Shown: one piece after another, positions 9,241-22,007 of the stretch
How positions within the stretch are numbered: position 1 is the first letter of the stretch
How the letters are laid out: every line of letters begins with the position of its first letter
IMG/VR virus record: IMGVR_UViG_3300021375_001947
Coordinates: 1-41,110 of that record
From: a virus
Strand: one strand, 5' to 3'
Length of the DNA stretch: 41,110 nucleotides
Notes under the pieces: generated by a model
What the model was told of the DNA's origin: nothing
Seen by the model: only the letters and a program-made list of their open reading frames with translations
Database searches by the model: none
Program-made: the position numbers and the translations under genes

Positions 9241-9630
9241 ATGATATCACTACAAGAATTACTTAAAGAAGATTCACATACAGAAGAATATAATGTAGAA
9301 AATTATCACGATATAAAAGAATTCTGTGAGTTTATGAAAGAATACAAAGCAGATATAAATGAAGCTGAGTATCAAGGTAGGACGGTAAAATTGGGTAAAC
9401 CAATGCAAGGTGATACCAAGAAATTCAAAGTATATGTTAAAAACCCTAAAGGAAATGTTGTCAAAGTAAACTTCGGACATGGAGGAAGTTCCGCAAAGAA
9501 ATCAGGAGAAAAAACAATGTCTATTCGAAAGAATAATCCAGATGCAAGAAAAGCATTTAGAGCAAGACACAACTGTGATTCACCAGGTCCAAGACACAAA
9601 GCAAGATATTGGTCTTGTAGAAAATGGTAA
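9241..9630 (+). CDS. Small basic protein with capsid-targeting-like N-terminus
   Basis: A 129-residue protein with a good AGGAG ribosome-binding site. The N-terminus MISLQELLKED is nearly the same as that of the protein at 14461 and resembles those at 15586 and 15986. A candidate gp21 cut site INE-A lies at Glu41. The C-terminal half is basic and Gly-rich (FGHGGSSAKKSGEK), then ARKAFRARHNCDS and a terminal YWSCRKW. I recall this C-terminal domain from many T4-like marine phages, with no known function. Two cysteines (NCDS and WSCR) could bind metal. By analogy with T4 internal proteins it may be packed in the head with the DNA. That role is inferred. Confidence 0.8.
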   Translation: MISLQELLKEDSHTEEYNVENYHDIKEFCEFMKEYKADINEAEYQGRTVKLGKPMQGDTKKFKVYVKNPKGNVVKVNFGHGGSSAKKSGEKTMSIRKNNPDARKAFRARHNCDSPGPRHKARYWSCRKW

Positions 9631-9670
9631 TAAATTAATTAATAAAGGTTATAACATAAATTAGGAAAAC

Positions 9671-11398
9671 ATGGCAGATACTTCATTTTTTGGGAGGTTA
9701 ACAAAACTCTTTAGAGCACAAGCAGTAGTTACTATCGATAAAGATGGTAAACGAAAAGTGTTTGATGGTGATGAACGTCAACAAACAAACTTATCTTCTT
9801 TAAGAGATAGATACACAAAATTACAGAAATCTTTTTTTGAACAAGCGGGTGGTGCACAATCAATGGCATACCAACAAGTTCGTAGAGAGGTATTCAGAGA
9901 CTTCGATGCAATGGATAACGACCCTATCCTTGCTTCAGCATTAGATATATACGCAGATGAATCAACACTAAAAAATGAATTTGGTGATACACTTATGATT
10001 CAATCTGATAATCAAAAAGTACAAGACTTACTACAAAACTTATTCTATGATGTAATGAACGTAGAGTTTAATCTATGGCCATGGGTAAGAAATATGTGTA
10101 AGTATGGTGATTTTTTCTTAGGATTAGAAGTAGCAGAGGGTAAAGGTATTGTTAATGTAACTCCTCACTCTGTTTACAATACAGAAAGATTAGAAAGAAC
10201 AGACCCATCGAATCCAAATTCAGTAAAGTTTAAAATTACTGAGGACCCGAATGGAAAAGAAGAATATGAAAACTTTGAAATTGCTCATTTTAGGTTGTTA
10301 GCAGATACTAACTGGTTACCATATGGTAAATCTATGATTGAGAATGGAAGAAGATTGTGGAAACAATTATCTCTAATGGAAGATGCTATGTTAATCCATA
10401 GAATCATGAGAGCACCTGAAAAAAGAGTTTTCAAAATTGATATTGGTAATATCCCACCAACAGAAGTGGATAACTATATGCAAAGAATCATCAACAAGAT
10501 GAAGAAGGTTCCTTTTATTGATAGAAATACTGGTGATTACAACTTAAAGTATAATATGCAAAACCTAACTGAAGATTTTTATCTTCCAGTTCGTGGTAGT
10601 GATAGTGGAACCAACATTGATAACCTTTCAGGTTTAGAATATGCAACTATTGATGATATTGATTACTTAAAGAATAAATTATTCGCAGCATTAAAGATTC
10701 CAAGAGCATATTTAGGATATGAAGAAAATGTAAATGGTAAAGCAACATTAGCAGCTGAAGATGTAAGATTTGCAAGAACTATTGAAAGAATCCAAAGAAC
10801 AGTTGTATCAGAATTATCTAAAATTGCTATCGTACATTTATACTCACAAGGAATTCAAGATTCTGAAATGACTAACTTTGAATTAAAGTTGGTAAATCCA
10901 TCTACAATTTACGAACAAGAAAAAGTAAATCTGTGGAGTGAAAAAATCAGATTAGCTCAAGATATTCAAGGTCTTAATATGTTATCTAAAGATTGGGTAT
11001 ATGAAAACATCTTCAAATTAAGTGGTGGTGAACAAGATGAACAACGAGTAATGATGTTAGATGATTTAAAAGATAGATTCAGATTCCGTTCTATTGAAGA
11101 TGAAGGTAATGACCCTGCAATGGAAGATGAAGAACCAGATGATATCGAAGAACAAATAGAAAATATCAAACAGGAAATTAAAGATAAAGGTGGTAGACCA
11201 AGAGAAGGTAATACTTATAAAAAAGATAAACATCCATTAGGTAGAGACCCTTTAGGTGATAAAGAGAGAACAAAAAAACGTTCTCGGACTTCCGAAGATA
11301 AAGCGTTGAAAGTTATCAACGGTATTGCAGCAAAACGTAAATATTTACACGAAATGAAAGATATGTTAGATGAATCTAATATAATCGATGAATCGTAA
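9671..11398 (+). CDS. 20: Portal vertex protein (T4 gp20-like)
   Basis: The dodecameric portal forms the DNA entry channel at one capsid vertex, nucleates prohead assembly and docks gp17. The 575-residue sequence has typical T4-family portal features: the early YQQVRREVFRDFDAMDNDP segment followed by ALDIYADEST; the NGRRLWKQLSLMEDAMLI helix; RAPEKRVFKIDIGN; KVPFIDRNTGDYN; and the GSDSGTNIDNLSG / IPRAYLGYEE region. The C-terminal tail (about 490-575) is charged and rich in Asp, Glu and Lys. T4 gp20 is 524 residues, so this one is somewhat longer at the C-terminus. An AGGA lies 7-10 nt before the ATG. Confidence 0.95.
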   Translation: MADTSFFGRLTKLFRAQAVVTIDKDGKRKVFDGDERQQTNLSSLRDRYTKLQKSFFEQAGGAQSMAYQQVRREVFRDFDAMDNDPILASALDIYADESTLKNEFGDTLMIQSDNQKVQDLLQNLFYDVMNVEFNLWPWVRNMCKYGDFFLGLEVAEGKGIVNVTPHSVYNTERLERTDPSNPNSVKFKITEDPNGKEEYENFEIAHFRLLADTNWLPYGKSMIENGRRLWKQLSLMEDAMLIHRIMRAPEKRVFKIDIGNIPPTEVDNYMQRIINKMKKVPFIDRNTGDYNLKYNMQNLTEDFYLPVRGSDSGTNIDNLSGLEYATIDDIDYLKNKLFAALKIPRAYLGYEENVNGKATLAAEDVRFARTIERIQRTVVSELSKIAIVHLYSQGIQDSEMTNFELKLVNPSTIYEQEKVNLWSEKIRLAQDIQGLNMLSKDWVYENIFKLSGGEQDEQRVMMLDDLKDRFRFRSIEDEGNDPAMEDEEPDDIEEQIENIKQEIKDKGGRPREGNTYKKDKHPLGRDPLGDKERTKKRSRTSEDKALKVINGIAAKRKYLHEMKDMLDESNIIDES

Positions 11399-13277: not shown

Positions 13278-13453
13278 TGACTAAAAAAGAATTGTATAAT
13301 ATCATTGATGAGGAAATCCAAAATGTAAAAATGGATAAAATCAACGAAGAAATTACAGAGTCAGATGAAAGATTGATTCGTAATTTAATTCGACAAGAGG
13401 TATCAGCAATCTTTTTTGATTTATTCAAACGAAGAAAAACTTGGGGAGCATAA
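13277..13453 (+). CDS. Small protein overlapping gp21, unknown function
   Basis: A 58-residue ORF. Its ATG overlaps the preceding TAA by one base and its own TAA overlaps the gp21 ATG by one base, so it fills the gap exactly and is very likely translated. The sequence starts MTKKELYNIIDEEI, an acidic amphipathic helix of the same general type as its neighbours, and ends with a hydrophobic-basic segment (VSAIFFDLFKRRKTWGA). Position next to gp21 suggests a prohead-core protein comparable to T4 gp67/gp68, but no homology can be claimed. Confidence 0.7.
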   Translation: MTKKELYNIIDEEIQNVKMDKINEEITESDERLIRNLIRQEVSAIFFDLFKRRKTWGA

Positions 13454-14046
13454 TGAATAAACTACTAATAGAGACAAGATTGTTCGAAGGTAAAGTAAAA
13501 GAAGATGATAGCGGAAGAACTATCGTTAAAGGTATTTTACAGAGAGCAGGTGCAGAAAATCAGAATGGTAGAATATATCCAATGGAAATTCTACAAAGAG
13601 AAGCTAAGAAATATGAAACTCTTATAAAAGAGAGACGTGCTCTTGGTGAATTAGACCATCCAGACTCTTCTGTAATCAATCTAAAGAACGTATCTCATAA
13701 CGTAAGAGAGATTCATTGGGATAATGATGATTTAGTAGGAACAGTTGAGATACTACCAACTCCAAGTGGTAACATCTTAAAAGAACTACTTAAAGCAGGA
13801 ATCCTTTTAGGTATATCATCAAGAGGTATGGGTTCAGTAGAACCTCTATCAGGTGGTAAAGTACAAGTAGGTGAAGATTTTGAACTAATAGGTTGGGACT
13901 TTGTTTCCAATCCATCTACACATGGAGCATTTATGACTCCAATGAATGAATCTGTAAACAAACAAATTCAAGAACAAGGTGAAGTTTGTAACGAGTGGTG
14001 TAAATCACAAGATATGATGAGAGAAATTATAACAGAATTAAATTAA
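13453..14046 (+). CDS. 21: Prohead core protein protease (T4 gp21-like)
   Basis: This serine protease cuts scaffold, capsid and internal proteins after (L/I)-x-E during head maturation. The start is the ATG at 13453, overlapping the upstream stop, rather than an in-frame TTG 12 nt earlier. The 197-residue product has the family motifs GELDHPDSS with catalytic His69 and GISSRGMGS with the nucleophile at Ser122 or Ser123, plus GWDFVSNPST near residue 137. An LFE-G site at Glu12 and an ESVNK near the C-terminus suggest self-processing. T4 gp21 is 212 residues. Its presence amid genes with (L/I)-x-E sites supports the reading that those are its substrates. Confidence 0.93.
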   Translation: MNKLLIETRLFEGKVKEDDSGRTIVKGILQRAGAENQNGRIYPMEILQREAKKYETLIKERRALGELDHPDSSVINLKNVSHNVREIHWDNDDLVGTVEILPTPSGNILKELLKAGILLGISSRGMGSVEPLSGGKVQVGEDFELIGWDFVSNPSTHGAFMTPMNESVNKQIQEQGEVCNEWCKSQDMMREIITELN

Positions 14047-15585: not shown

Positions 15586-15975
15586 ATGAAACTAAAAGAT
15601 ATACTTAATGAATCGATTATAAATGAAGGTTTCATGCCTATTATTTCACAACCCAAAATAAAGTTGAAAGGTAAAGATGGTAAATCGGAAACCTTACAAT
15701 GGAAAGTAAGTGTTAGTTCACAAGCAAGCTATGGTGATTTATATATAAACTTTGAACCTAAAGGAATAAAGACGTTACGATTAGCTTTAGAAATGGAACA
15801 AGTAGATGAAGGTGATTACTTAACTTCTGGTAAGGAAAAGAGAGTTTTACATGAACAATTAGCAAAGTGGACTCAAAGTAAATTAGGATATCCTGCAAAA
15901 CCATTATCAGGTGTCTTTAAAGCAAAATTTATGGTTGAAGTTAGTTTAGATAAACTAATTAAAAAACTTAAATAA
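15586..15975 (+). CDS. Candidate internal head protein, small
   Basis: A 129-residue protein with a GAGGA ribosome-binding site. The N-terminus MKLKDILNESIINEGF contains two (L/I)-N-E sites (Glu9 and Glu14, the latter followed by Gly), an ideal short propeptide for gp21. The mature part is a compact basic alpha/beta sequence (QPKIKLKGKDGK, LYINFEPKG, MEVSLDKLIKKLK-like end). No family is recognised. It resembles T4 internal proteins in plan: short cleaved leader followed by a small basic body. Confidence 0.75.
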   Translation: MKLKDILNESIINEGFMPIISQPKIKLKGKDGKSETLQWKVSVSSQASYGDLYINFEPKGIKTLRLALEMEQVDEGDYLTSGKEKRVLHEQLAKWTQSKLGYPAKPLSGVFKAKFMVEVSLDKLIKKLK

Positions 15976-15985
15976 GGAGAACAAA

Positions 15986-18124: not shown

Positions 18125-18469
18125 ATGAAACTCCAAAATATCATAGACGAGATATTTGAAGAAACCACAAATGAAGATTTGAGAAACTGGTTTAAATCCA
18201 AGTGGGTTAACATCGGTAAAAAAGATAAAAGTGGTAAACATCCCCCATGTGGTACAAGTGGTAAGAAAAAAGGATATGCTAAATGTGTTCCTGCTTCTAA
18301 AGCCAAATCTATGAGTAAGAAAGAAAAAGAATCTGCAACTCGTAGAAAAAGAGCAGCACAAAATAAATCAAATAGAGGTGGTTCTCAATCAGCAGGACAA
18401 GGTAAGAAACCTATAAACGTATCAACCCATACTAAGGGAAGAAAATCAGGAACTGGTAAAGGTTCTTAA
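18125..18469 (+). CDS. Small basic protein, DUF5872-like
   Basis: A 114-residue, strongly basic protein starting one base after the preceding stop. The N-terminus MKLQNIIDEIFEETTNE is of the shared targeting type. Residues 20-60 contain WFKSKWVNIG, HPPCGTSGKKKGYAKCVPAS; this 'KW-V-IG ... CG ... KKGY-KC-P' pattern is what I recall for the DUF5872 family found in phages and bacteria. The C-terminus is a Lys/Arg/Gly/Ser tail. It may be DNA-associated and packed in the head; this is inferred from charge and the N-terminus. Confidence 0.75.
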   Translation: MKLQNIIDEIFEETTNEDLRNWFKSKWVNIGKKDKSGKHPPCGTSGKKKGYAKCVPASKAKSMSKKEKESATRRKRAAQNKSNRGGSQSAGQGKKPINVSTHTKGRKSGTGKGS

Positions 18470-18499: not shown

Positions 18500-18526
18500 A
18501 TGTTACATTTAAATAAAGGAGAATGA
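18500..18526 (+). other. Possible 8-codon upstream ORF (MLHLNKGE) coupled to bS21
   Basis: An ATG at 18500 opens an 8-codon frame whose TGA overlaps the bS21 ATG (ATGA), the same overlap type seen at real gene junctions here. It spans the AAGGAG that lies unusually close to the bS21 start. It could be chance; no ribosome-binding site precedes it. Confidence 0.25.
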
Positions 18527-18864
18527 GTAAAAAGAAATCAATAGTAGGTGTTAAAGTTATCAAAGGAGATATTAATAGAGCACTAAAAAAGTTAAAAAGA
18601 AAAGTTAACGATAGTGCACATCTTTTAGAACTTAGAGAAAGAAGATACTACACAAAACCCACAACAGTTCGTAGAAAACAAAAACAACAAGCTATTAGAG
18701 AACAGCAGAAAGAAACTATACTTGGTAAAATTGATGATGGGGATACTACTCTTAGATTTTACACTAAAAAGAAAAAAACAACTCCAAATAAGCAAAATAA
18801 TACAAAAAATAAAGAAAATTCACAGAAATCCATAGAAAACAATGGGTTAAAAATGAATAAGTAA
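18523..18864 (+). CDS. rpsU: Ribosomal protein bS21 homologue with C-terminal extension
   Basis: Residues about 8-65 match bS21: VKVIKGDINRALKKLKRK, an ELRERRYYTKPTTVRR core and a Lys/Gln/Arg-rich helix. The bS21 protein binds the 30S platform near the anti-Shine-Dalgarno end of 16S rRNA and helps initiation; phage copies are known in pelagiphages and uncultivated viruses. The 113-residue product is longer than cellular bS21 (about 60-70), with an extra Lys/Asn/Thr-rich tail of about 45 residues. The AAGGAG at 18516-18521 is only one base from the ATG, far closer than normal, which may lower or regulate translation. The stop codon shares a base with the promoter motif for gp22. It likely adapts host ribosomes to phage mRNAs (inferred). 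Confidence 0.85.
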   Translation: MSKKKSIVGVKVIKGDINRALKKLKRKVNDSAHLLELRERRYYTKPTTVRRKQKQQAIREQQKETILGKIDDGDTTLRFYTKKKKTTPNKQNNTKNKENSQKSIENNGLKMNK

Positions 18865-18874: not shown

Positions 18875-19019
18875 CAAAATAACCCACCTATTGTGGGTTT
18901 AATCATTGGTTCATGAATACCCACTAATATATGTAGGGTGACCGAAAAAACCAATTAGTTTAACACACACATTGAAAATCCCTTAATATTTTCACGATAA
19001 TAATAACGAAAGGTAAATT
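18875..19019 (+). promoter_or_regulatory. Structured 5' leader of the gp22/gp23 transcript
   Basis: This 145-nt non-coding stretch holds a 7-bp hairpin AACCCAC/GTGGGTT (18881-18887 with 18893-18899, loop CTATT). A second, larger fold pairs ATTGGTT (18905-18911) with AACCAAT (18949-18955) and encloses an ACCC/GGGT stem (18919-18922 with 18936-18939). The first hairpin has only three Ts after it, so it is a poor terminator. It more likely lies near the 5' end of the mRNA and stabilises it. The word ACCCACnAATA (18919-18929) recurs in the leader at 33954-33964. Confidence 0.45.
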
Positions 19020-20225
19020 ATGGCAAACTCAAATTTGTTAAAAGAAGCCATCGCTGATGCTAAAGCTGTAAGAGAAACTGCTATTGCTAACGCTAAGATT
19101 GCTCTTGAAGAAGCATTTACTCCACGTCTACAATCTATACTATCTCAAAAACTCCAAGCAGAAATGGAAGGAGAAGATGAGGAAACTATGGATGAGGAAA
19201 ACGTAGTAGAAGCAACTGAAGAAGTAAACGAAGAAGAAGCAGTAGAAGAATCTACTGAAGTTGAAGCAGTATCTGAAGAAACTGTAACTGAAGAAGAAGA
19301 TAAAGAAGAAGTTGAAGAATCAACTGAAACTGTATCTGAAGAATCAGAAGTAGTATCTGAAGAAGAAGTTAAAGAAGTTGATGAAGCATTATCAATGACT
19401 GTAACTGAAACTGAAGAAGAATCCGATGAGGATGAAGTATCTGAAGTAAGCGAAGAGGCTGAAGAAGAAAAAGAAGAGGAAGTAGAAGAAACTATGGAAT
19501 CTGAAGAATCAGACGAAGATGAACTTGATTTGGAATCTATCATTAAAGAACTTGAAGAAGAACTTGATGATGAAGAGGAAGAAGAAGTATCTGATATCGC
19601 ATCTGATGAAATCGAATCACACGAAGAGGAAATGCATTCTGAAGAAGAAGCTGAAGAAGAAGTAGAAGAAACTATGGAATCTGAAGAAGAAATGGAAGAA
19701 GGTGAAGAATCTGAAGAAGAAGATTTAGACGAAGAAATCGACCTTAACGAAATCCTAAGAGAAATGGGATACGGTGAAGAGGAAGAAGAAATTGAAGAAT
19801 CTGAAGAAGTTTCTGAAGAAGTTGTAGAAGAAACTAATGAACTTGAAGAAGTAAAATCAGAGCTTACAGAAGCAATGGATACTATCAAGGAACTTAAATC
19901 TACAATTAATGAAGTTAACTTGCTTAACGCAAAACTTCTTTACACAAACAAGCTGTTTAGAGCTTATGACTTAAACAATGACCAAAAAATGAAAGTTGTT
20001 GAGACATTAGACAGAACAGGTAACGTAAGGGAAGTTAAACTTGTATTTAGCACATTAGCTGAATCATTTAAGTTTAATGGAACTGCAAAAAAAGTGAAAG
20101 CAAGTAAAATCAACGAATCATTCGCATCTAAGTCAGTTGCAAGTACTGCTCCCTCTAAGGAAGTAATTACTGAATCAACTAATTCAATTGCTGAAAGATT
20201 TAAGAAACTTGCAAATATTAAATAA
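19020..20225 (+). CDS. 22: Prohead core scaffold protein (T4 gp22-like), strongly acidic
   Basis: This protein would form the internal scaffold on which gp23 assembles and be degraded by gp21. The 401-residue sequence starts MANSNLLKEAIADAKAVRET and continues with an ALEEAFTPRLQSIL segment, which I recall from marine T4-like gp22. It ends with a conserved region containing INEVNLLNAKLLYTNKLFRA and a VREVKLVFSTLAESF helix. Between these (about 50-285) lies an extreme Glu/Ser/Val-rich stretch with very few basic residues. T4 gp22 is 269 residues, so this acidic insert accounts for the extra length. An AAGG precedes the ATG. Location directly before gp23 matches T4 order. The long Ser-rich ORF on the opposite strand is an artefact of the GAA-rich codons. 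Confidence 0.9.
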   Translation: MANSNLLKEAIADAKAVRETAIANAKIALEEAFTPRLQSILSQKLQAEMEGEDEETMDEENVVEATEEVNEEEAVEESTEVEAVSEETVTEEEDKEEVEESTETVSEESEVVSEEEVKEVDEALSMTVTETEEESDEDEVSEVSEEAEEEKEEEVEETMESEESDEDELDLESIIKELEEELDDEEEEEVSDIASDEIESHEEEMHSEEEAEEEVEETMESEEEMEEGEESEEEDLDEEIDLNEILREMGYGEEEEEIEESEEVSEEVVEETNELEEVKSELTEAMDTIKELKSTINEVNLLNAKLLYTNKLFRAYDLNNDQKMKVVETLDRTGNVREVKLVFSTLAESFKFNGTAKKVKASKINESFASKSVASTAPSKEVITESTNSIAERFKKLANIK

Positions 20226-20253
20226 ATTAACAAAAATTTAAGGAGATAAAAAA

Positions 20254-21861
20254 ATGGCAAATTTTGATTTATCTAAACTTACAGAAGGAAAGAACCCACA
20301 ATCAGTAATGCTAGCAGAAACTAGAGAACTGAAAGGTAAATGGGAACAAACTGGACTTCTTGAAGGTTTAGGAGAAAGAGAACAATCACAGATTTCTGTA
20401 TTGTTAGAAAACCAAGCAAAACAATTGCTTGATGAAGCTACTGCTACCGGTACAGGTGGTGGAAACGAAGAGTGGAGTGGAGTAGCTCTACCATTAGTAA
20501 GACGTATCTTTGGTGAAATTGCATCAAAAGAATTCGTTAGTGTTCAACCAATGAACCTTCCTTCAGGTCTAATCTTTTATTTAGACTTTAAGTATGGTAC
20601 GGCTCAAGCAGGAAACCCTGGCTTCAACGGAAAATCACTTTTTGGTGGTACTGGTGCAGACTTAGGTTCAACTGATTCAGCAGTAAATGGTTTATACGGT
20701 GAAGGTAGATTTGGATATACTGTAAACAATGTATCTGATGAAGCTACAACTGGTGAACAAACTTTTGCAACTGCATCATGGCAAGAAGTAGGATTTGATT
20801 CAAGTCTTTCAGCTTCTATCGCTGCAGGTGAAATCGCTAAGATTTCTGTTGCAACAAGTGTATTAACTAGACCTGATTTAGATGGTGTAAGAAGCTTCTA
20901 CGTTTCTTCATCTGATTTCGCAGGTGCTGATACATTCTATCCAGCACATTCTAAAGTGAATGGTTCAAACTTTGAATTCTTCGCTAAAGTAACTGATATT
21001 ACTGCAGGTGTAGGTGATGGATTAACAATTAAATTTTCAGAAGCACCAACAGCTGCAGAAAGAGGAGACTTCGAAGATAGCGCTCCATCTGAACCTGCAA
21101 CTGATATAGGTATTCCTGAAGTTGACCTTGAGTTGAAGTCTGAAGCAATTGTTGCTAAGACAAGAAAACTAAAGGCTGTGTGGACTCCTGAGTTAGCACA
21201 AGATTTAAATGCATACCACAGTATTGATGCTGAAGCTGAATTAACTTCAATGTTATCAGAGTACATCTCATTAGAGATTGACCTTGAAATCCTTGATATG
21301 TTAAAAGCTAACGCATTAACAACTGAGTACTGGTCTGTATCATTAGGTGAAGAGTACAACTCTGCAACTGGTCAATGGCTAGCAGGTAGTAACTCTGCTG
21401 CTTATACTAAGAACTCTTGGTTCCAAACTCTTGGTGCGAAACTTAATAAAGTTTCTAACAAGATTCACCAATTGACACTTAGAGGTGGAGCAAACTTCGT
21501 TGTTGCTTCTCCAGATGTTTGTACTATTTTAGAATCTATTCCAGGATTTGCAGTTTCAGCTGATAAAGATGCTTCATCTTTCGCTGCAGGTGTAACTACT
21601 GTTGGTTCTTTATCAAACAGATATACTGTGTACAAAAACCCTTATATGACTTCTAACGAAATCTTATTAGGATTTAAAGGTTCAAACTTCCTAGAAACAG
21701 GAGCAGTTTACGCACCTTATGTACCATTAATCATGACACCTCTTGTATATGACCCAACTAACTTTACACCAAGAAGAGGTGTAATGACTAGATACGCTAA
21801 GAAAATGGTTCGTCCAGAATTCTATGGTAAAATCTATGTTAAAGATTTAGCTAACGTATAA
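20254..21861 (+). CDS. 23: Major capsid protein precursor (T4 gp23-like)
   Basis: This is the HK97-fold hexamer protein of the head. The 535-residue sequence has the T4-family N-terminal propeptide (residues 1-61, MANFDLSKLTEG...) ending in LLDE-ATATG, an expected gp21 cut after Glu61, close to Glu65 in T4. It is followed by EEWSGVALPLVRRIFGEI, typical of gp23, and FVSVQPMNLPSGLIFYLDFK. The C-terminal part has the family's RGGANFVVASPDVCTILE and YKNPYMTSNEILLGFKG blocks. A strong AAGGAGA precedes the ATG and a Rho-independent terminator follows the stop, so gp22-gp23 form the end of a transcription unit. No gp24 vertex paralogue is seen in this window. Confidence 0.96.
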   Translation: MANFDLSKLTEGKNPQSVMLAETRELKGKWEQTGLLEGLGEREQSQISVLLENQAKQLLDEATATGTGGGNEEWSGVALPLVRRIFGEIASKEFVSVQPMNLPSGLIFYLDFKYGTAQAGNPGFNGKSLFGGTGADLGSTDSAVNGLYGEGRFGYTVNNVSDEATTGEQTFATASWQEVGFDSSLSASIAAGEIAKISVATSVLTRPDLDGVRSFYVSSSDFAGADTFYPAHSKVNGSNFEFFAKVTDITAGVGDGLTIKFSEAPTAAERGDFEDSAPSEPATDIGIPEVDLELKSEAIVAKTRKLKAVWTPELAQDLNAYHSIDAEAELTSMLSEYISLEIDLEILDMLKANALTTEYWSVSLGEEYNSATGQWLAGSNSAAYTKNSWFQTLGAKLNKVSNKIHQLTLRGGANFVVASPDVCTILESIPGFAVSADKDASSFAAGVTTVGSLSNRYTVYKNPYMTSNEILLGFKGSNFLETGAVYAPYVPLIMTPLVYDPTNFTPRRGVMTRYAKKMVRPEFYGKIYVKDLANV

Positions 21862-21975: not shown

Positions 21976-22007
21976 AGTATAATTATATAAGTTAAGGAGA
22001 GTAATAT

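Follow-up and report, generated by a model that had tools for sequence, protein, structure and literature searches.

Freshwater huge phages of Bacteroidetes encode the ribosomal protein bS21 no more than about five genes away from TerL, the portal, the protease and the major capsid protein (MCP); late expression of phage bS21 has been published for them, and its substitution into host ribosomes has been proposed (Chen et al. 2022, PMC9723584). Incorporation into ribosomes of E. coli has been reported for the bS21 of Pelagibacter phage HTVC008M (Mizuno et al. 2019, PMC6375957, as cited in PMC9723584). Bacteroidia ribosomes are blind to Shine-Dalgarno (SD) sites because their 16S tail is held by bS21, bS18 and bS6 (PMC9976891). 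In F. johnsoniae, a Y54A substitution in bS21 or its C-terminal truncation increased translation of strong-SD mRNA 3- to 5-fold; the effect was seen with exceptionally strong SDs, ΔC ribosomes performed worse on weak-SD mRNA, and a pairing of −13 kcal/mol was reported to be necessary for the effect on rpsU (McNutt et al. 2023, PMC9976891).

Here, we analyzed a 41,110-nucleotide stretch of viral DNA (the window) that encodes a bS21 among its head genes. That phages can encode bS21 next to their capsid genes is known from published work; its coupling to SD sites looks new, as we found no report, within open-licence papers, of SDs confined to the late genes of bS21-encoding phages.

A bS21 gene in a T4-like head block

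The open reading frame at 18523–18864 (+ strand, stop included) runs from ATG to TAA and encodes a product of 113 aa. Residues 10–61 (18550–18705, +) match the Pfam family Ribosomal_S21 (PF01165; E = 3e-13, 49.7 bits against a cut-off of 27), PHROG 21469 “ribosomal protein S21” provides a second family match, and solved bS21 chains are matched at E ~1e-6 to 1e-4. These matches confirm the bS21 core recognized in an earlier sequence-only reading of this DNA. Structure modeling predicted helices at residues 14–29, 32–39 and 46–71 and a 52-residue extension whose distal part has low confidence. A phage collection searched with the window bS21 gave no match, and a scan of genome contigs with bS21 gave no relatives. 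The aromatic residue at position 54 that is expected of an anti-SD-sequestering Bacteroidia bS21 is absent: in a gap-free alignment with F. johnsoniae bS21 (7jil residues 11–56 against query residues 16–61), the position of Tyr54 is occupied by Arg59 (codon 18697–18699, +), which is invariant across the phage bS21 family in the alignment of relatives.

The bS21 gene lies in a T4-like head block. The terminase gene (7616), the gp20 portal gene (9671–11398) and the S77 protease gene (13441–14046) lie upstream of bS21, and an acidic gp22-like scaffold protein gene (19020–20225, +) and the gp23 MCP gene (20254–21861, +; PF07068, E = 4e-77) follow it directly, which bears out its earlier placement just before the capsid genes. 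The T4-like tailed-phage markers Terminase_6N, Portal_T4, Peptidase_S77 and Gp23 were all matched, while the gp22-like protein, which has no Pfam or family match, was assigned from its position and its relatives. In the window, bS21 is encoded near TerL, portal, protease and MCP on the same strand as the structural genes, and the order bS21, gp22-like, MCP recurs in relatives. An inverted repeat seen by eye after bS21 (AACCCAC...GTGGGTT, 18881–18899, +) is a possible weak terminator.

Several further features of the block were noted. The gene directly upstream of bS21 (18125–18469, +) is a conserved neighbor whose product is small, basic and weakly similar to DUF5872; a homolog with 31–33% identity sits beside bS21 in otherwise different phages (L101 and L105, ~9645–9980), and the protein is possibly functionally linked to bS21. 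The structural-block proteins encoded at 9241, 14461, 15586, 15986 and 18125 have similar N-termini (MISLQELLKE, MISLKNLLKE, MKLKDILNE, MKLTQLLKE and MKLQNIIDE, respectively) that resemble the leaders by which internal head proteins of T4 are targeted to the capsid and which the prohead protease cuts, and these products may be packaged and injected. Motifs resembling ATTTATATA recur upstream of structural genes 1278, 6297, 9241, 11457, 33411 and 37777 as candidate late promoters; in Flavobacterium phage vB_FspM_immuto (hereafter immuto), TATTTATAAATA recurs before structural genes and is also a candidate late promoter.

The leader of the phage rpsU gene is unusual in its spacing. The native leader reads AAAGGAGA-ATG, and an SD core, AAAGGAG (18515–18521, +), stands 1 nt before the bS21 ATG. 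With a gap of 1 nt, an SD is too close to the start to be used normally; in other window genes, the AGGA-to-ATG gap is mostly 6–9 nt. Of 21 clade members, 18 have AGGAGA directly before the bS21 start, while the leader diverges. The Bacteroidia trait of a strong, normally spaced SD before rpsU is therefore not seen here. The leader also contains a recurrent GTTACA (18502–18507, +), which showed no enrichment before other genes and was therefore rejected as a motif marking starts or promoters in general.

Shine-Dalgarno sites on structural genes

We scored an SD core as AGGA, GGAG or GAGG at −20 to −4. Such cores precede 64% of 28 window genes compared with 14% in an upstream control stretch, in agreement with the earlier remark that many genes here carry strong SDs. 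On longer contigs of the clade, with “structural” denoting homologs of the window's structural genes, SDs were found on 16/30 structural versus 46/255 other genes in G001, 12/23 versus 5/35 in G003 and 10/16 versus 2/29 in G005. Pooling these three contigs gave 38 of 69 structural and 53 of 319 other genes (p = 2e-10), and the anti-SD pairing energy agreed with this split. The sister phage G002 had SDs on 8/21 structural versus 18/210 other genes. The contrast was weak or absent in G006–G008, G041 and G043, whose contigs are shorter and largely structural themselves. A gene-caller artefact is an unlikely source of the split, as the same caller gives SDs on 0.41–0.45 of the non-structural genes of G016, G017 and G053.

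The SDs are also conserved gene by gene. They were present in 18/18 orthologs at each of MCP, neck, 15986, 12795 and 23164; in the window, the AAGGAG sites of the first three lie at 20240–20245 (MCP), 21994–21999 (neck gene 22008) and 15974–15979 (gene 15986), all on the + strand. The leaders of the MCP, neck and 15986 orthologs are only 43–46% identical at −40 to −21. The late-gene sites are thus complementary to the anti-SD, normally spaced and kept despite divergence of the leaders. Because retention in 18/18 orthologs while the leaders diverge looks like selection, something in the infected cell probably reads the late-gene SDs.

We then considered how SD use is distributed relative to bS21. 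Among 71 gp23-clade contigs, an SD-rich block was almost always accompanied by a phage bS21: 37 had bS21 and were SD-rich, 13 had bS21 only, 2 had SDs only and 19 had neither, with the absence of bS21 not established for each contig, since many are fragments. An independent-pairs test of bS21 against SD was not significant and was underpowered, with about five (4–5) independent bS21 changes; given so few events and this test result, the clade-wide correlation is suggestive only. The immuto genome, in which no bS21 was found, had SDs at 5/169 genes versus 28 in the control stretch. A second class of bS21-encoding phages (G016, G017, G051, G053, G054 and Mel-JY01) uses SDs genome-wide, as phages of SD-using hosts would be expected to do; what sets the window clade apart is the split between structural and other genes.

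Mel-JY01 (L071, L073 and L074; PP395634.1), labeled a Microcystis phage, has further features worth recording. Its MCP and TerL group with those of Bacteroidota phages, and TTG-N20-TANNTTTG promoters are strongly enriched in its genome (18 forward versus 0 reverse); the phage encodes bS21 and uses SDs throughout. Its Microcystis host label may be wrong.

Probable hosts and possible routes to SD reading

The hosts of the clade are probably Bacteroidia, and probably Flavobacteriales-like, an indirect assignment made from GroEL, start sites, promoters, signal peptides and the hosts of related phages. Among typed genomes, GroEL of G001 scored best against Tyr54-type ones, with G128 and the Flavobacteriaceae MAG G011 at the top (62% identity). 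The start sites of non-structural genes show A enrichment at −10 to −14 and no clear G peak, like those of immuto and of Tyr54-type cells. Bacteroidota promoters of the form TTG-N20-TANNTTTG were found in G001, G003 and, strongly, G002; as a separator of Tyr54-type from Arg-type Bacteroidota hosts the motif fails, since genome-wide counts overlap. In several secreted proteins, the signal peptide is followed by Q, in line with the Bacteroidetes Q-rule (PMC5837995), although the scan was crude and Arg-type cells have such proteins too. Scanning genome contigs with the MCP recovered only relatives of 49–58% identity, and the location of 3/8 loci in Flavobacteriales/Flavobacteriaceae MAGs is not decisive. 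The related phage immuto (TerL 55% and MCP 52% identical) infects Flavobacterium.

The residue at position 54 predicts SD use imperfectly. In cellular Bacteroidota (L330–L349, a small sample confounded by class), 5 Tyr54-type genomes had 0–8% SD and 15 Arg-type genomes 12–59%, and huge phages with a host-like Tyr-type bS21 had 2–18%. Exceptions occur in both directions: L202, L214, L123 and L168 are SD-rich phages despite Tyr or Phe at this position, and L151, L152, L158, L165, L169, L173 and L205 are SD-poor despite Arg. Residue 54 alone is therefore ruled out as the rule deciding SD use. Per-site comparisons of bS21 residues with SD richness, with F/Y at position 38 among the strongest, were confounded by clade and were set aside as evidence. 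Separately, in the 735-kb phage LR756501.1, which encodes a Tyr-type bS21 (L350, ~20001), the phage rpsU gene is preceded by a strong SD like that of hosts (AAAGGAGGATAA) and may be under host-style autoregulation.

We propose that phage bS21 takes the place of host bS21 late in infection, leaving the anti-SD free and thereby favoring SD-bearing late mRNAs, a reading of the sequence data to which we give an even chance. Host bS21 would help to keep the 16S 3′ tail out of reach, leaving SDs unread, and early phage genes would be translated by the host's own mode. Phage bS21 would later enter new or exchanging 30S subunits and, failing to hold the 16S tail as host bS21 does, would leave the anti-SD free, so that SD-bearing late phage mRNAs would be favored over SD-less host mRNAs. 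The mis-spaced rpsU SD adds the most speculative step: ignored by unmodified ribosomes, it would misplace SD-reading ones and create negative feedback, and its role as a brake acting on SD-reading ribosomes only is speculation. Taken as a complete two-part switch, with a non-sequestering phage bS21 acting in trans, a late-gene SD code in cis and the rpsU SD as brake, converting SD-blind Bacteroidia ribosomes into SD-reading ones, the model is plausible, though we would lean slightly against its holding in full. Several points count against the mechanism: residue 54 is an imperfect predictor, independent bS21 changes are few, some contigs of the clade show little or no contrast between structural and other genes, ΔC ribosomes of F. 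johnsoniae performed worse on weak-SD mRNA, and the phage SDs are weaker than −13 kcal/mol, although energies were computed differently here.

The sequence-only reading had suggested that phage bS21 tunes initiation on phage mRNAs and that its tail might contact mRNA or rRNA. The first part gains support from the concentration of SDs, their gene-by-gene conservation, the comparison with immuto and the probably SD-blind host; the part assigned to the tail does not, and Arg59 in the core appears to be the better candidate for tuning initiation.

Some of the same observations admit other explanations. The host could belong to a Bacteroidota lineage with weak SD use and a native Arg-type bS21, in which case the phage protein would be a host-like spare that maintains complete ribosomes, the late SDs would result from strong expression and there would be no switch. 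Arg-type Bacteroidota genomes with merely 12–20% SD use do exist, some cellular bS21s of the Arg type give slightly higher scores with phage bS21, and bS21 is also encoded by phages with genome-wide SD use. We nevertheless consider this explanation doubtful, because the start sites of non-structural genes have a Bacteroidia-like A enrichment without a clear G peak, GroEL sides with Tyr54-type genomes and phages that use SDs have them on non-structural genes as well (0.30–0.45).

Alternatively, in an SD-blind host, the SDs could be read through another phage factor, one able to modify or eliminate host bS21, bS18, bS6 or an initiation factor, with phage bS21 restoring completeness or serving another role. 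Several bS21-encoding phages are SD-poor, which implies that bS21 is not sufficient, and the pocket also needs bS18 and bS6 (PMC9976891); SD-rich blocks lacking a phage bS21 are, however, rare (2/21 in the survey), and no candidate second factor came to light incidentally. In F. johnsoniae, losing bS21 is by itself enough to free the anti-SD, a point that we counted in favor of this unlikely explanation. An origin of the structural block in a phage whose host uses SDs, which would make the SDs functionless leftovers of an import, is very improbable: the MCP tree nests the clade among SD-poor lineages, and SDs kept in 18/18 orthologs while leaders diverge do not resemble leftovers. Modular exchange is common among phages, and related phages with genome-wide SDs exist, both of which would fit such an import.

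The C-terminal extension (residues 62–113; 18706–18861, +) is real, but its broad conservation is limited to the proximal part. It extends about 52 residues past the core, where about 45 extra residues had been estimated earlier, and is not simply Lys/Asn-rich as then described: residues 62 to ~84 are conserved across relatives (ETILGKIxDGDTxxRFYTKKKK), followed by a variable K/N-rich stretch and an end motif. The extension is kept in the close IMG/VR relatives L002–L021, whose proteins are 86–113 aa, and this conservation rules out a misread stop. The modeled last helix (46–71) passes beyond the core into the conserved proximal tail, and an IENYGLKM-like motif recurs at the tail end in a subset of relatives; both would suit a tail that selects phage messages through contact with mRNA or rRNA. 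That the tail is the working part is nonetheless highly improbable, with contact to either RNA not supported, since the distal tail is variable in length and sequence with low model confidence, and structural SD enrichment in G002 (L021), whose bS21 has only 86 aa, shows that SD use does not depend on the tail and leaves the tail unsupported as a cause.

Comparison with known systems

If the proposed replacement of host bS21 is true, a virus would change the start signals read by the ribosome by swapping one protein and would mark its late genes accordingly; few examples exist of specialized ribosomes that go with a defined cis code. The idea can be tested directly, as ribosomes of F. johnsoniae, mutants of its bS21 and reporters with and without SDs exist (PMC9976891), and other phages could be screened from sequence alone for SDs restricted to late genes where the host group is SD-blind.

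The window phage resembles those of Chen et al. (PMC9723584) in having bS21 near TerL, portal, protease and MCP, in being an AT-rich large myovirus and probably in infecting Bacteroidetes. It differs in that bS21 lies on the same strand in the window and on the opposite strand in those phages, and in having Arg at position 54, which is always aromatic there; late-gene SDs are not among the features reported in the parts of that paper considered here. HTVC008M likewise encodes bS21, but it has an alphaproteobacterial host, and no late-gene SD code is described in what is available of that work (PMC6375957). The T4-like phage immuto (NC_055915), with TerL 55% and MCP 52% identical to those of the window phage, differs from it in having no bS21 and SDs at just 5/169 genes. 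Finally, F. johnsoniae bS21 shares the fold and core of the window protein, aligning without gaps over residues 16–61 (McNutt et al. 2023, PMC9976891). The cellular protein has 64 aa, its Tyr54 holds the 16S tail, and its rpsU gene has a well-spaced strong SD, whereas the phage protein has Arg59 and a 52-residue extension, and the SD of its gene lies 1 nt from the start (PMC9976891).
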